DNA of 11,692 nucleotides from Hyphomicrobium sp. GTDB taxonomy: Bacteria; Pseudomonadota; Alphaproteobacteria; Rhizobiales; Hyphomicrobiaceae. The position numbers were made by a program, and so were the translations under genes. Of this stretch, positions 107 through 10,170 are shown piece by piece. The notes below the pieces were generated by a model. It was not told the origin of the DNA. It worked only from the letters and a program-made list of their open reading frames with translations, and made no database searches. Within the stretch, counting starts at the first letter, position 1; each line of letters begins with the position of its first letter. The stretch spans positions 1 to 11,692 of the forward strand of contig JAUVPN010000045.1 in NCBI GenBank assembly GCA_030598645.1. Reading direction: 5' to 3'.

Positions 107-529
107 CTATTTCAAAAAGCCCAGCCCTTGAAAAAAGCTGTACTTGTCCCAGTCGACCCAGCTCTCGGCAATCTTCCCATTTTCGAAGCGGTCGATTTCA
201 ATGCCCGTCCACGTGACTTCCTTCCCGGTCGGTGGTTGCCCTAGGTACTCGCCTGTATTGGTAGCGGTAAATTCGAACCGCGTGGCAACCAACTCTCCCT
301 CCGAAATTTGCATCAGACAAATGGTCGTGCAGTTAGTGAATCCCTTATGAAAGTCTGCGACAAGTTCTTTCCAGCTCTCGAGACTCCGTATGCCCGCGCT
401 CCCTTTGACGTCTGATTCTTGGTGATTGACGTAGTTGTCCGAGAGCACGTCTTCAGGCGTATCCATATTGTTGCTGGCCCACATTTCGATCGCGCGTCGC
501 GACATCTCTTTATGGTCTTCAAGCGACAT
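107..529 (-). CDS. SnoaL-like ester cyclase / NTF2-fold protein
   Basis: This 140-residue protein has the size and composition of a single-domain SnoaL-like (NTF2-fold, alpha+beta cone) protein. Visible features are an N-terminal helix, a DNYVNHQ segment near residues 31-37, the stretch EYLGQPPTGK that is typical of SnoaL-type 'ester cyclase' annotations, and a C-terminal ESWVDWDKYSFFQGLGFL-like end where the family carries its W-D residues. Family members include polyketide cyclases, but most bacterial relatives have no known substrate and nothing here suggests polyketide synthesis. The ATG at 529 is preceded by AAAGGG at a good distance. It begins 25 bp after the stop of the upstream MarC-family gene on the same strand and is followed by a strong terminator, so it is probably the last gene of a two-gene transcript. 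The family call is solid; the reaction is unknown. Confidence 0.82.
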   Translation of the reverse strand: MSLEDHKEMSRRAIEMWASNNMDTPEDVLSDNYVNHQESDVKGSAGIRSLESWKELVADFHKGFTNCTTICLMQISEGELVATRFEFTATNTGEYLGQPPTGKEVTWTGIEIDRFENGKIAESWVDWDKYSFFQGLGFLK

Positions 530-554
530 AAACGTGCCCTTTGTGCTCGCTAAT

Positions 555-1187
555 CTACCCGGCGAGGCCTGGCATCAGGCCCTTCAAACCATCTGCTAGC
601 ATGCCGATGGCAATCGTTGCCAAAATCATGCCCATGACGCGCGTGACAACACCCATTCCGGATTCCCCCAACCATTTCGATATGGGTCCTGCGAAGCTAA
701 AAAGAAAACCGATCAAGGCGGAAAGTGCCAAGACGATTGCGGTTATCTCGAATCTACCGGCCAAAGCTGAGCTTTGGTGAGCAACCACTAGGACAGTCGC
801 CATAGTTCCCGGCCCTGCGACGATTGGAATGGCGAGCGGGACTACCGCGACTGAAGGGCGAGACTTGGCATCTTCGTGTTCTGCCGGCGTGTGTTGGTGC
901 GATTTGTTATTGTTAAGCATGTTTAGACCGATCAGAAATACAATGACGCCGCCAGCTGCTCTAAGCGCATCGACCGTGATCCCGAAAAAATCAAGTAGCA
1001 ATGAGCCAGACCAAGTAACGATCAGTAGGATGATCGCGACCGCTACGGCGCAGGTCCAAGCGGTACGCTTTGTCTGTGCCTCGTCACGCCCCTCCGTTAG
1101 CCCCGCGAAGATACCCACATTGCCGATAGGGTTCATCACCGAGAAAAGGGCAGCTACAAAACTGGACAGTGCGGCCTCTGTCATCAT
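555..1187 (-). CDS. MarC family integral membrane protein
   Basis: A 210-residue polytopic inner-membrane protein of the MarC/UPF0056 family, at the family's normal length. Hallmarks are the NPIGN motif in the first membrane segment (residues 19-23), AAGGVIVFLIGLNML (77-91), the PLAIPIVAGPGTM motif (117-129) and a last hydrophobic segment TRVMGMILATIAIGMLADG. I count six membrane segments in two similar halves, joined by a hydrophilic loop (about 92-112) holding three histidines. The family's function is unsettled; the old link to multiple antibiotic resistance was not upheld, and transport of small molecules is only presumed. Two adjacent ATG codons (1187 and 1184) are both possible starts; the nearest Shine-Dalgarno-like core (AAAGGA) lies 12-15 nt upstream, within a 14-bp tandem duplication. 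It is probably cotranscribed with the SnoaL-like gene that follows. Confidence 0.9.
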   Translation of the reverse strand: MMTEAALSSFVAALFSVMNPIGNVGIFAGLTEGRDEAQTKRTAWTCAVAVAIILLIVTWSGSLLLDFFGITVDALRAAGGVIVFLIGLNMLNNNKSHQHTPAEHEDAKSRPSVAVVPLAIPIVAGPGTMATVLVVAHQSSALAGRFEITAIVLALSALIGFLFSFAGPISKWLGESGMGVVTRVMGMILATIAIGMLADGLKGLMPGLAG

Positions 1188-6358: not shown

Positions 6359-6506
6359 TTTGTACTAGCAGCGAGGGGCAGCCCTTGATCCGGCTCAATC
6401 AGTCTTCAGAAAGATTGTGTTTACGTGCGGGTCTTGGAGAGCGAGCCTCTAGAAATTGCTCCGTGCCGCGCGTCGATATATGGGTGAGTTGCCTGGCCGA
6501 AGTTGG

Positions 6507-7781
6507 ATGAAGAACGCCTTGTGGGGGTCTAGATCCGGGAAAGCTCTGGGGCCGCTCGTGTTCGTCGCGCTGCTCCTGCTAACGTTTTATCCAGCCCAAT
6601 CTCAGCAGTCACCTCATGCGCCGGTTTCACCACACCTCGGCTCGGTGCCCATTTACCTGTTCTGGACAGCCACTTGTCCGCATTGCGCGAAAGCGAAGGC
6701 ATTCCTCGAAGCGCTCGCCCTGAAGGAGCCAGGGATAAGGCTTCGCAGCTTGGAGCTGTCGACTAATAAGGCGCACGACCGCGCCTTCGATATCCTCAAT
6801 AGGCATTTCAAGATAGAGCCACCCGCCGTACCACTCATCATTATAGGCGATGAGATATTTCTAGGTTTCGATAAGAATGAGACGACGGGAGTTGAATTGC
6901 TTGGTGCCATCGCAGCATGTCAGCGGGCCCGCTGTCCGGACGTTACGGGTTCGATTATTGCGGGCGAAACCTCGCAACTCGGTCCAGGTCTGTCGAGGGA
7001 TACCGAAGGGCGTGCGCGCCGGCCTACACTTCCCGAGACGATCTGGCTCCCACTGATCGGTAAGGTTCCGACGCAATCGATTTCGCTTCCAGTTCTGACG
7101 ATCGCTCTCGGTGCCATCGACGGCTTCAATCCGTGCGCGATGTGGGTTCTTGTTTTCCTGATTGGACTATTGGTCGGTATGAAAGATCCGGTCAGGATGT
7201 GGAGCTACGGCGCTGTGTTCCTTTTAACATCGGCACTCGTCTACTTCGCCTTTATGGCAGCTTGGCTCAATGCATTCCTACTGCTCGGCTCCATTAAGAT
7301 CATCCGCATGGCTGTCGGTATCTTTGCAATCGGAGCCGGCGGTTACTACCTCTGGCAGTTTTTGACCAATCCGGAGGCGGCCTGCGCCGTGACGCAACCT
7401 GGAGAGCGGCAGCGTATCATGGCACGCTTTAAGGAGGCGGTTGCGCAGCGATCGTTCCTGGTGGCTGTTGCCGGGATCATTGTGCTCGCCGTCGTCGTAA
7501 ACCTCGTAGAGCTCCTGTGCTCTGCAGGTATCCCGGCGGTCTACACACAGGTGCTTGCTCTCAGTGAATTATCGACCCCTGCGTACTACGCTTATTTGAT
7601 GCTCTATGTTTCAGTTTTTCTGATCGATGACATTGTCGTCTTCGTGACCGCAATGATAACAGTGCGGGCTACAGGATTGACAGGGAACTACGCGCGTTAC
7701 TCTCACTTGGTCGGCGGTATCATACTCAGCGGAGTTGGTTTTCTGCTGCTTTTCCGGCCGGAGTGGCTGGCCTTCGCCTGA
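6507..7781 (+). CDS. Thioredoxin-domain / DsbD-CcdA-like thiol-redox membrane protein
   Basis: A 424-residue protein in three parts. First a signal sequence or membrane anchor (hydrophobic LGPLVFVALLLLTF at about 14-27, then AQS). Next a periplasmic thioredoxin-like domain with the active site CPHC (57-60) in WTATCPHC and a cis-proline in AVPLIIIGDE; a further Cys pair sits at about 138 and 143. Last, about six membrane segments (194-417) with one Cys in DGFNPCA (Cys210) and another in VELLCSAGIP (Cys338), the arrangement by which DsbD/CcdA proteins pass electrons across the inner membrane. It probably reduces periplasmic disulfides, possibly for cytochrome c maturation or defence; the partner is unknown. 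Longer starts at 6480 (ATG) and 6456 (TTG) are in frame; I prefer 6507 because it gives an ordinary signal peptide, but no start has a good ribosome binding site. A cytochrome c gene follows 228 bp downstream. Confidence 0.88.
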   Translation: MKNALWGSRSGKALGPLVFVALLLLTFYPAQSQQSPHAPVSPHLGSVPIYLFWTATCPHCAKAKAFLEALALKEPGIRLRSLELSTNKAHDRAFDILNRHFKIEPPAVPLIIIGDEIFLGFDKNETTGVELLGAIAACQRARCPDVTGSIIAGETSQLGPGLSRDTEGRARRPTLPETIWLPLIGKVPTQSISLPVLTIALGAIDGFNPCAMWVLVFLIGLLVGMKDPVRMWSYGAVFLLTSALVYFAFMAAWLNAFLLLGSIKIIRMAVGIFAIGAGGYYLWQFLTNPEAACAVTQPGERQRIMARFKEAVAQRSFLVAVAGIIVLAVVVNLVELLCSAGIPAVYTQVLALSELSTPAYYAYLMLYVSVFLIDDIVVFVTAMITVRATGLTGNYARYSHLVGGIILSGVGFLLLFRPEWLAFA

Positions 7782-8009
7782 GAGAATAGATCGTCATCTC
7801 GCATCAAAACAAATACAAGAAGCTATGCGGTGCGGCGTCAGCTCTACCCAATACAAGCCAATATGCAGACTATTGCAGTAGACGCTCGCCTAGAGGCGTT
7901 TGTTTGCCGTTGATGTAGATCATTCCGTCAGCCGTCGAGACGCATCTATCCTCTGGCTACCCCCCACGACGCTAACGAGTTGCTTTCGATAGCGAGGAGC
8001 AAGGTGGTT

Positions 8010-8336
8010 ATGCGTAGAGTTTATAAAGTGGCTGTAATAGCCTCCGTCCTCACGACAGGGGTTGCCCAAGCAGCGAATTCGGCAAATCCGCAACTCGGCC
8101 TCGCTTACGCACGGGAGAGCTGCGCAGAATGTCATGCGGTTGAGATGGGAGAAGCAGTCTCGCCATCGCCCGATGCGCCCAGCTTCGAGTTTGTAGCGAA
8201 TATGCCTGACGTAACGGCCCAGTCGCTCGATGTGTGGCTGCAGAGCCCGCATCCAACAATGCCCAATTTGATGATACTCACCCAGGACCGAAACAACGTG
8301 ATTTCGTATATCTTAAACTTGCGGACTGAAAAATGA
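8010..8336 (+). CDS. Small periplasmic monohaem cytochrome c
   Basis: The 108-residue product begins with a clear Sec signal peptide (MRRVYKVAVIASVLTTGVAQA, cleavage likely after residue 21), followed by a mature protein of about 87 residues. CAECH (38-42) is a classical CxxCH haem c attachment motif. Met84 in HPTMPN is the likely distal ligand, and the C-terminal helix DRNNVISYILNLRTEK is typical of class I cytochromes, which carry electrons between membrane complexes or enzymes. The ATG at 8010 has GAGGAGCAAGG just upstream; the in-frame ATG at 7980 would add ten residues ahead of the signal peptide and is less likely. Its position behind the thiol-redox gene is suggestive, since haem attachment needs reduced CxxCH cysteines, but the 228-bp gap argues for separate promoters. 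The electron donor and acceptor are unknown. Confidence 0.92.
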   Translation: MRRVYKVAVIASVLTTGVAQAANSANPQLGLAYARESCAECHAVEMGEAVSPSPDAPSFEFVANMPDVTAQSLDVWLQSPHPTMPNLMILTQDRNNVISYILNLRTEK

Positions 8337-8736
8337 TCGGCGCGACACGGTGTAGAAAAGGCACTAATCCTAGCGACGCGCTTGGAAAGAGGCTTGTTCT
8401 GAGTGGCATTGGGTTAACTTTCCCGCCAGGAAATTCAGCCGCATCGAATTGAATGAAGAGCGACCCGATTGACTGCAATCAGCTCAACTGACCAAGGCGG
8501 AGTTTGCGTTGCGCAGGCGCCGGTAGATCGATAGCCCTAACAGCGAATGTCAGCATTCAATTATTCCATGAGGCTTCTGGGGTCAGACGTTAACTTTTTG
8601 CCGTCGGACTAACTGCAAACGAAGCCTCGAATGTGTCATGAGTGCATTCGAATTTCGACGAAGAGAACAGGCCAATTTTCATTAGCGCCAAGGTTCACCG
8701 CGCACCATGGGGACTAGAGAGGCTGAAAAATATTAA
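8337..8736. other. Non-coding spacer upstream of the ketosynthase-like gene
   Basis: No supported gene lies in these 400 bases. The only structured element I find is a 7-bp inverted repeat, TCGAATG (8627-8633) and CATTCGA (8645-8651), separated by 11 nt, about 90 bp before the ketosynthase start. I looked for a nod box because the next gene resembles nodE and saw none. Confidence 0.5.
8627..8651. promoter_or_regulatory. 7-bp inverted repeat, possible operator
   Basis: TCGAATG and its exact reverse complement CATTCGA are separated by 11 nt, so the two half-site centres are 18 bp apart, under two helical turns. That layout suits a dimeric regulator such as a TetR- or MarR-type protein, or a small hairpin. 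It lies 86 bp before the start of the ketosynthase-like gene. No regulator gene is nearby. Confidence 0.3.
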
Positions 8737-9981
8737 ATGGTAGACTCTGACCTCACCCCCCGTGTGGTCGTTACCGGAATGGGAGTAGTAACGCCGATCG
8801 GTCAGACGGTGGCTGATTTCTGGAACGGTCTGAAACAGGGCCGATCTGGAATCGGACCGGTCGAAGGCGTGCAGCTCTATAATCTCAAAGTTCAGATCGC
8901 AGGCCAAATCAAGGATTTCGATCACAGGGCACGTCTCAAACATTGGCAGCGCGACAAGACGATTATGTTCTCTGACCGCTTTTCTTGGTTGGCTGCAGCG
9001 GCCGCCGACGAAGCGATTAAGCAATCAGGCCTTCAGTTGCCATTCAAGAGTGCACATCGCGTGGCGTGCATTATTGGCTCCGGTGCCGGTGGTCAGACTA
9101 CGGGCGAAACCGCAGCTCATAATGTCTTTGTGATTAATAAGCGCGCTGTGCACCCCATGACGCTTCCTCGACTGGTTGGTTCGTCGGCAGCAGCACACGT
9201 CGGCATAGAGTACGGAGCCAAGGGTCCCACCTTTGCGATTTGCAGCGCCGGGGCGAGCGCTGCGCATGCCATCAGCGTTGGCAGCGATTATATCCGTCAC
9301 GGGATGGCCGATGTGGCGATTGTTGGCGGATCTGACAGCATGATCACGTATGGTTCTATGCTGGCCTGTCAAGCCATGGGCTTGCTGTCGCCTCAAGGCT
9401 GCTTTCCCTTCTCCCGCAATCGGAACGGCACTGTTCTGGCAGAGGGCGCTGGCGTGCTGGTGCTGGAATCTGAGCGCCACGCGACCGAGCGCGGTGCGAT
9501 GATGCTGGCGGAACTCTGTGGTATCGGCATGACCTCAAGCAGCACGGACATGGTCAATCCGGACATAGAAGGGACCAGCGAGGCCATGCGTCTGGCACTT
9601 AATGATGCGAATCTTGAGCCCACCGCCATCGATTATCTGAACGCAAATGGCACGGCGACGGTCTTGAACGATTTGAACGAGACTAAGGCCATAAAGAAGG
9701 TGTTTGGCAGGCACGCCTCAAACATAGGCGTTTCCTCCACTAAGTCGATGCATGGCAATCCGATGGGTGCTTCTGGTGGCATAGAAGCTGTAGCCTGCCT
9801 CAAAGCTCTGGATGCCGATTGGATGCCGCCAACCATTGGACTTGATGAGAGTGATTCCCAGTGCGATCTCGACTATGTGCCCAATATTGGGCGCGATAAG
9901 AAATTGATCTACGCGATGTCAAATTCGTTCGGCTTGGGTGGCTTGAATGCCGCGCTCGTTTTCGGACCGACGCCTGCGTGA
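8737..9981 (+). CDS. KAS II / NodE-like ketosynthase with substituted catalytic triad
   Basis: A full-length (414-residue) member of the FabF/NodE thiolase-fold family, which normally condenses malonyl-ACP with an acyl chain through a Cys-His-His triad. The fold is intact: VVVTGMGVVTPIG at the N-terminus, the GADV-like MADVAIVGGSD (190-200), GTVLAEGAGVLVLE (231-244), STKSM (334-338), CDLDYVPN and NSFGLGGLNAALVF at the C-terminus. Gapless comparison with E. coli FabF from memory puts Gly172 (in ICSAGASAAHAI) at the nucleophilic Cys163, Asn304 (NANGTAT, for NAHGTGT) at His303 and Asn341 (KSMHGNPMGASG, for KSMTGH) at His340; Lys336 is kept, and Leu400 replaces the gating Phe. Cys169 is three residues too early to be the nucleophile. 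It therefore cannot work by the normal mechanism; a chain-length-factor-like or binding role is possible. The ATG at 8737 has only a distant AGAGAGG upstream. Confidence 0.9.
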   Translation: MVDSDLTPRVVVTGMGVVTPIGQTVADFWNGLKQGRSGIGPVEGVQLYNLKVQIAGQIKDFDHRARLKHWQRDKTIMFSDRFSWLAAAAADEAIKQSGLQLPFKSAHRVACIIGSGAGGQTTGETAAHNVFVINKRAVHPMTLPRLVGSSAAAHVGIEYGAKGPTFAICSAGASAAHAISVGSDYIRHGMADVAIVGGSDSMITYGSMLACQAMGLLSPQGCFPFSRNRNGTVLAEGAGVLVLESERHATERGAMMLAELCGIGMTSSSTDMVNPDIEGTSEAMRLALNDANLEPTAIDYLNANGTATVLNDLNETKAIKKVFGRHASNIGVSSTKSMHGNPMGASGGIEAVACLKALDADWMPPTIGLDESDSQCDLDYVPNIGRDKKLIYAMSNSFGLGGLNAALVFGPTPA

Positions 9982-10099
9982 GATGGCCATAACCGGGCGG
10001 AACGTGATGCTGCCGCATAAACCGTTTGTTGCCCCGACTTCCGCTGCTTGCACTCGTTGACCAATTAAAGCGATTGCGAGGCCCGCCAGCTCGCTAGGG

Positions 10100-10116
10100 C
10101 TGCCCTTTCGGGGCAG
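10100..10116 (+). terminator. Probable terminator of the ketosynthase-like gene
   Basis: CTGCCC (10100-10105) and GGGCAG (10111-10116) form a 6-bp stem with the 5-nt loop TTTCG, followed by the pyrimidine-rich TTCCTCTGCTTTCT. It lies about 120 bp past the ketosynthase stop, further than usual, and the tail is not a pure T-run. Confidence 0.45.
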
Positions 10117-10140
10117 TTCCTCTGCTTTCTATTCGCGGCA

Positions 10141-10170
10141 ATGTCGGCTAAGTGCCAAAAACAGACAGTT
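10141..10170 (+). repeat. Copy of the 'MSAK-Q' short repeat (copy 3, best preserved)
   Basis: ATGTCGGCTAAGTGCCAAAA reads MSAKCQKQT in the plus frame. Short hypothetical ORFs beginning MSAKCQKRT or close variants recur many times in annotated Bradyrhizobium-type genomes as I remember them, and they appear to be translations of a dispersed repeat and not real proteins. Related copies in this window are at 4310 and 5849. Confidence 0.55.

Follow-up and report, generated by a model that had tools for sequence, protein, structure and literature searches.

Ketosynthase-fold pseudoenzymes are known mainly as chain-length factors (CLFs) in polyketide clusters. CLFs are usually encoded beside their ketosynthase (KS), and the actinorhodin CLF has Gln at the position of the catalytic Cys. 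The KSQ-type malonyl-ACP decarboxylase carries Gln at the Cys position and keeps the His pair, KAS III (FabH) has a Cys-His-Asn triad, and NodE is an active condensing enzyme. A passage of a 2025 review describes the CLF as an 'inactive' KS that has no catalytic residues and forms an obligate heterodimer with an active KS (PMC12664062). In the type II PKS-like cispentacin system, as set out in a passage of a paper on AmcF-AmcG, an active KS is also paired with a partner lacking known functional motifs (PMC10698177); AmcG differs in being a short protein (157-position profile) and not a full-length KAS fold. For FabF, an excerpt of an earlier study names Phe400, Phe202 and Asp265 as gating positions (PMC7138838). 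The window, meaning the whole 11,692-nucleotide stretch of DNA analysed here, encodes a member of the ketosynthase fold that has none of the triad residues and is not a one-off. It belongs to a fatty-acid/NodE-type lineage, lies outside any visible cluster and has lost the whole triad and the gate.

The gene runs from ATG to TGA and has no internal stops. Both ketoacyl-synthase domains of Pfam (PF00109 and PF02801) match its product over residues 9-248 and 257-369. An AlphaFold model made with 63 varied sequences (pLDDT 84, with the lowest confidence, below 50, at residues 141-149) and matches in the PDB predict the fold of FabF. Against NCBIfam TIGR03150 the protein scores 410.2 bits, under the cut-off of 493.75, as does a relative with an intact triad from locus L067 (448 bits); the NF005589 subfamily is matched with 394.3 bits against a cut-off of 387. 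Residues were mapped on E. coli FabF from MG1655, and the alignment is free of gaps around the motifs. The features are as follows.

8423..10149, + strand: block in common with positions 6660-8387 of a Hyphomicrobium MAG contig (L001), by blastn, at 79.9% nucleotide identity
8737..9981, + strand: pseudo-ketosynthase ORF (P0001), 414 amino acids, FabF/NodE-type fold without the catalytic triad
9250..9252, + strand: codon 172, GGG (Gly), at the site of the FabF nucleophile Cys163, by alignment
9367..9369, + strand: codon 211 (Cys), at the FabF gate site F202; Trp in 169 of 169 Cys-type relatives
9538..9540, + strand: codon 268 (Ser), at the FabF loop-2 site Asp265; Asp in 169 of 169 Cys-type relatives
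9646..9648, + strand: codon 304, AAT (Asn), at the FabF His303 site, by alignment
9742..9744, + strand: codon 336, AAG (Lys), corresponding to FabF Lys335; kept in 28 of 28 clade members
9757..9759, + strand: codon 341, AAT (Asn), at the FabF His340 site, by alignment
9934..9936, + strand: codon 400, TTG (Leu), at the site of the gating Phe400

With FabF/KAS II the protein shares the fold, the length, the buried potassium-site residues and Lys335, at 36-40% identity to solved FabF structures, but Cys163, His303, His340, Phe400, Phe202 and Asp265 are all replaced. A first-pass annotation of this DNA had noticed the three triad replacements, the kept Lys and the unbroken frame; the FabF alignment agrees, and the extent of the loss had been understated, as F400 to L400, F202 to C211 and D265 to S268 are lost as well. 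The gate loop reads GLGG with Leu400 in place of the GFGG expected of FabF/KAS II. Since nucleophile, His pair and gate are all absent, condensation by the FabF mechanism is very probably not to be expected of this protein, and we infer that it has no such activity.

From two homologue searches, with 7941 and 7935 hits, the best 120 of each combined to 143 distinct proteins, the window protein included. Among these best matches the Cys is absent in 27 of 143 (26 Gly, 1 Asp), and a further Gly-type copy, 85% identical to the window protein, lies on the L001 contig of a Hyphomicrobium sp. MAG (JAUWCP010000096.1). In an IQ-TREE tree of 68 rows, from which six trait columns were left out, the 28 non-Cys rows form a single clade among Cys-type relatives with support of 100/100. 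Because only the best 120 per search were taken, the clade is possibly larger than 28. Its members are 64-96% identical to the window protein; 27 of them measure 390-422 amino acids, the shorter of which may be cut by contig ends, and some carry 'nodulation protein E' as source annotation. Cys-type relatives, at about 58-70% identity to the window protein and of equal length, have Cys, Trp, Asp, His, His and Phe at 172, 211, 268, 304, 341 and 400 in 169 of 169 cases. Gly-type genes are scattered: one was present among the 30 best matches read in a search of 103 genomes of the family, and no further one among the loci read in searches of the order (397 genomes) and the class (385 genomes) at E <= 1e-150, both of which are samples. 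The searches made of open-licence PMC papers listed no publication on the non-Cys clade.

Within the clade, the six positions have changed to different degrees. Position 172 is Gly in 27 rows and Asp in one, and position 400 is Leu in 26, Ile in one and Met in one. Trp has gone from position 211 in 28 of 28 rows (Cys 20, Ser 6, Ala 2), and Asp from position 268 in 27 of 28 (Asn 15, Ser 8, Gly 4, Asp 1). The two His positions are more mixed, with 21 Asn and 7 His at 304 and 22 His, 4 Asn and 2 Asp at 341; an altered His341 is always accompanied by Asn304. The resulting triads are G-N-H (14 rows), G-H-H (7), G-N-N (4), G-N-D (2) and D-N-H (1). The window's Gly-Asn-Asn is common to three other clusters, among them P0002 (96% identical to the window protein, standing for 24 sequences) and P0003 (87%, 57 sequences). 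Hence, of the suggestion that Gly-Asn-Asn might be conserved as a clade, the loss of Cys stands as the mark of one clade of 28 members, and the exact combination is limited to 4 of the 28. The residues Lys336, Asp312, Glu315, Asn396, Asn404 and Cys169 are invariant in all 28 rows. Among Cys-type relatives, Cys169 and Lys336 are each present in 168 of 169; one such relative (P0072) has Asn in place of Lys336, a single sequence and possibly an error.

The tree requires at least one change for Cys and one for Phe400, both on the stem of the clade, and three for His304 and four for His341 inside it; for His304, three losses or one loss with two returns fit equally. The first-pass annotation had taken the three losses to be independent, which does not describe this history: Cys was lost once for the whole clade together with F400, and His304 and His341 changed several times later. 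It had also held that a change from Cys to Gly needs two base changes. One suffices (TGC to GGC, with GGC in the L001 copy); in the window copy the codon is GGG, which TGC reaches in two steps. Each His-to-Asn replacement takes one (CAT to AAT). Since intermediates with G-H-H, G-N-H, G-N-N and G-N-D exist side by side, the order in which a ketosynthase is converted into a non-catalytic protein becomes directly testable.

The Cys-less protein is selected to stay intact despite its lost catalytic residues. The window and L001 genes separated after the loss of Cys and, on the tree, after the loss of His304, and their subclade has Asn304 in 11 of 11 rows. Between the two, dN/dS is 0.130 by NG86 and 0.145 by YN00, and 200 bootstrap resamplings span 0.087-0.183. 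The two genes are separated by 187 base differences, and their products by 61 amino-acid differences. When 187 changes were scattered at random over the window gene in 500 trials, they altered 127.5 amino acids on average (never fewer than 111) and created 4.9 stops on average; only 2 of the 500 trials were free of stops. A low dN/dS after the loss, together with fewer changes and stops than random, therefore indicates that the protein was kept by selection, in line with the earlier impression of a selected and not decayed gene; relaxed selection was not seen. Comparisons among and with Cys-type genes gave dN/dS of 0.09-0.18, with dS mostly saturated.

It is the fold, with parts of the surface, that selection has kept. 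The segment corresponding to the ACP-docking region 1 of FabF has a conservation of the clade's own, with Trp70 and Ser79 in 28 of 28 members and also Thr/Ser75, Arg72 and Asp73. At the FabF K65 site the clade has Lys in 19 of 28, Gln in 6 and Pro in 3, whereas all 169 of 169 Cys-type relatives have Lys or Arg there; 24 of 28 clade members keep Arg/Lys at the R127 site, and at the R206 site the window copy has Gly. FabF's basic contacts to ACP are thus kept only in part, so that binding of ACP by the window protein is plausible, though not clear from these residues. The aromatic rings at the F202 and F400 sites are lost in 28 of 28 members, and a gate opened in this way could leave the pocket permanently accessible.

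The Gly-type gene is solitary, and its position relative to neighbouring genes has changed. The block shared with L001 includes 314 bases before the gene and 168 bases after it; outside this block, window and L001 have no blastn match except a 28-base repeat. This stretch (window 10140-10167, L001 5676-5703) is non-syntenic, lies at the right edge of the window's shared block and seems to be a dispersed repeat, which could have taken part in the movement of the gene. No homologue of an ACP, an acyl ligase or a second KAS was found in the window or L001, and no ketoreductase matched by Pfam among the ten window ORFs scanned, in line with the first-pass view that no partner lies in the window. 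In the conserved upstream stretch, no RNA or tRNA was detected at the gathering threshold, and promoter and terminator scans did not rise above chance, with no promoter and with 3 terminators where 2.6 were expected. An L001 ORF upstream of the gene (6620-6916) has no Pfam match and no counterpart among the ORFs listed for the window. As to carriage, no plasmid DNA matched the whole window and all plasmid protein matches were below 60% identity, none of 51 pattern matches in viral contigs was confirmed as a relative, and no PHROGs family matched, so that mobile-element, viral and phage origins find no support.

The closest relatives, the Cys-type KAS of the Hyphomicrobiaceae-type ligase-ACP-KAS module, keep the six catalytic and gate positions, unlike the clade. 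At 51 of 55 distinct Cys-type KAS loci read, an ACP gene precedes the KAS on the same strand at a distance of no more than 500 bases, and at 49 of those 51 an AMP-binding acyl ligase is also present in the stretch covered. One of the four loci without an ACP is cut by a contig end and three are extra paralogues. The module, conserved as a divergent AMP-binding acyl ligase, a small ACP and a NodE-like KAS, can be seen at L067 (8042-11646), L069, L070, L071, L085 and others; the clade points to a ligase-ACP-KAS module that is unstudied and occurs with 49 of the 55 distinct Cys-type relatives examined. The extra Cys-type paralogues (L072, L073 and L074, from genomes G010 and G014) have no ACP or ligase nearby, and in two the gate loop reads AFTG and SFSG in place of AFGG. 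The genome of L001 (G001) also has, adjoining an ACP gene, a Cys-type paralogue with 63% identity to the window protein; co-occurrence of Gly-type and Cys-type genes was thus seen in one genome, the sole one in which it could be examined. For the window's RF3 the nearest match (89%) is in genome G004, of the same genus as G001; in G004 only a Cys-type KAS was detected at the cut-off used. Completeness is not given for these genomes, so this absence is weak evidence.

By their catalytic definitions, the window protein falls outside FabF, NodE and KSQ. A KSQ-type decarboxylase is not indicated, because Gln is absent (27 Gly, 1 Asp) and the first His is mostly lost. Asn341 recalls the Asn of KAS III, but with neither Cys nor the first His present a FabH type was rejected. 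The NodE likeness amounts to about 44% identity to a KAS of a Rhizobium leguminosarum plasmid whose gene lies beside nodB and an ACP gene; the window protein differs in having no triad and no ACP gene, and no nod-type gene was present among the window ORFs scanned. CLFs of type II polyketide synthases (actinorhodin KS/CLF, Iga12, AntE, ApeC) likewise have a KAS fold without the catalytic Cys and derive from an active ketosynthase, and the precedent drawn in the first-pass annotation is apt by analogy. The clade differs from them in having Gly (once Asp) at the Cys site, Asn/Asp at the His sites and a lost gate, in a gene that adjoins neither KS nor ACP in the window or L001, and by sequence it groups with FabF/NodE relatives. 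As a shared operon is not seen, the likeness to CLFs is one of analogy at most.

A family of dead copies kept by selection is probably a helper or a binding partner and not an enzyme. The roles suggested in the first-pass annotation, namely acyl-ACP binding, a scaffold or regulation of KAS enzymes encoded elsewhere, would fit such a protein but stay at the level of proposals. The proposed role is that of a FabF-fold pseudo-ketosynthase maintained for binding, which would dimerise, in the manner of a CLF, with a catalytically intact ketosynthase. The partner would most likely be the closest Cys-type paralogue, encoded in relatives beside an ACP and an acyl-CoA/ACP ligase, and the Cys-less subunit might shape the pair's acyl pocket or the way it docks ACP. 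Dimerisation, the identity of the partner and an effect on chain length or flux are what we infer here, and a CLF-like partnership, most likely with the Cys-type paralogue, is put forward tentatively, at a little under an even chance. Several observations speak against it: the Gly-type gene is alone in both of its contexts, the basic ACP-docking positions are incompletely retained in the clade, the model is least confident at residues 141-149, co-occurrence with the paralogue was seen in one genome, and Gly-type genes are scattered in the family. A wider idea, somewhat doubtful, is that the clade is an undescribed class of stand-alone pseudo-ketosynthases whose ungated KAS pocket binds acyl chains or acyl-ACP, and which might act in trans as a sensor, a buffer or an allosteric partner of the ligase-ACP-KAS module and not as a CLF of the classical, operon-linked sort, the catalytic residues having been dismantled stepwise under persisting selection on the rest.

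The main rival to a CLF-like partner is a homodimeric binder of acyl-ACP or acyl chains, acting as a sensor or in a sequestering or regulatory role, for which no ketosynthase partner would be needed. The solitary gene, flanked by no ACP or KAS gene in either the window or L001, fits such a protein, as do a kept fold with an opened gate (F202 and F400 sites non-aromatic in 28 of 28) and the retention of Lys336, Asp312, Glu315, Asn396 and Asn404 in 28 of 28. However, ACP-docking positions are kept only in part, the lining of the pocket varies between clade members and so suggests no single ligand, and no known regulatory KAS of this type came up in the searches made of open-licence PMC papers. 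This explanation is rather unlikely, though the likeliest of the alternatives.

An enzyme with a different chemistry, for example acyl transfer or hydrolysis by way of Lys336, Cys169 or a substrate thiol, is improbable. The invariance of Lys336, Cys169, Asp312 and Glu315 in the clade would be in keeping with it, but Lys336 and Cys169 are just as conserved in Cys-type relatives and are therefore inherited and not new. The three formerly catalytic positions, moreover, vary among clade members, which disfavours a new fixed active site.

Still less probable is a redundant copy heading for loss, in which selection would act on folding and harmlessness only or would have stopped recently. More catalytic residues are gone towards the tips of the tree, as the changes at His304 and His341 indicate, and many positions that are invariant in Cys-type relatives vary in the clade. 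Mean pairwise identity is 74% in the clade and 86% in the first 60 Cys-type rows, two sets that were sampled differently. Neither the window nor the L001 copy has a stop or frameshift, however, and 27 protein members measure 390-422 amino acids; the dN/dS of 0.13 lies within the range of the Cys-type comparisons, most of which have saturated dS; and the clade is deep. The dN/dS already disfavours such a redundant copy. Misassembly, sequencing error or misalignment has a negligible probability and is refuted, as the first-pass annotation had supposed for sequencing error, because the 96% and 87% clusters independently share Gly-Asn-Asn and no gaps occur around the motifs.

Some features of the surroundings can be added. 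Upstream of the gene, the window ORF at 6456-7781 (+) encodes a glutaredoxin-like domain followed by a long hydrophobic, apparently membrane-spanning part, and only its N-terminal part matches known families. A small ORF at 7980-8336 (+) carries the haem-binding motif CxxCH; neither Pfam nor NCBIfam matches it. In G001 (L004), two similar small ORFs at 78-476 and 497-958 (-) lie downstream of the Cys-type KAS, and the one that was scanned is cyclophilin-like (PF04126).
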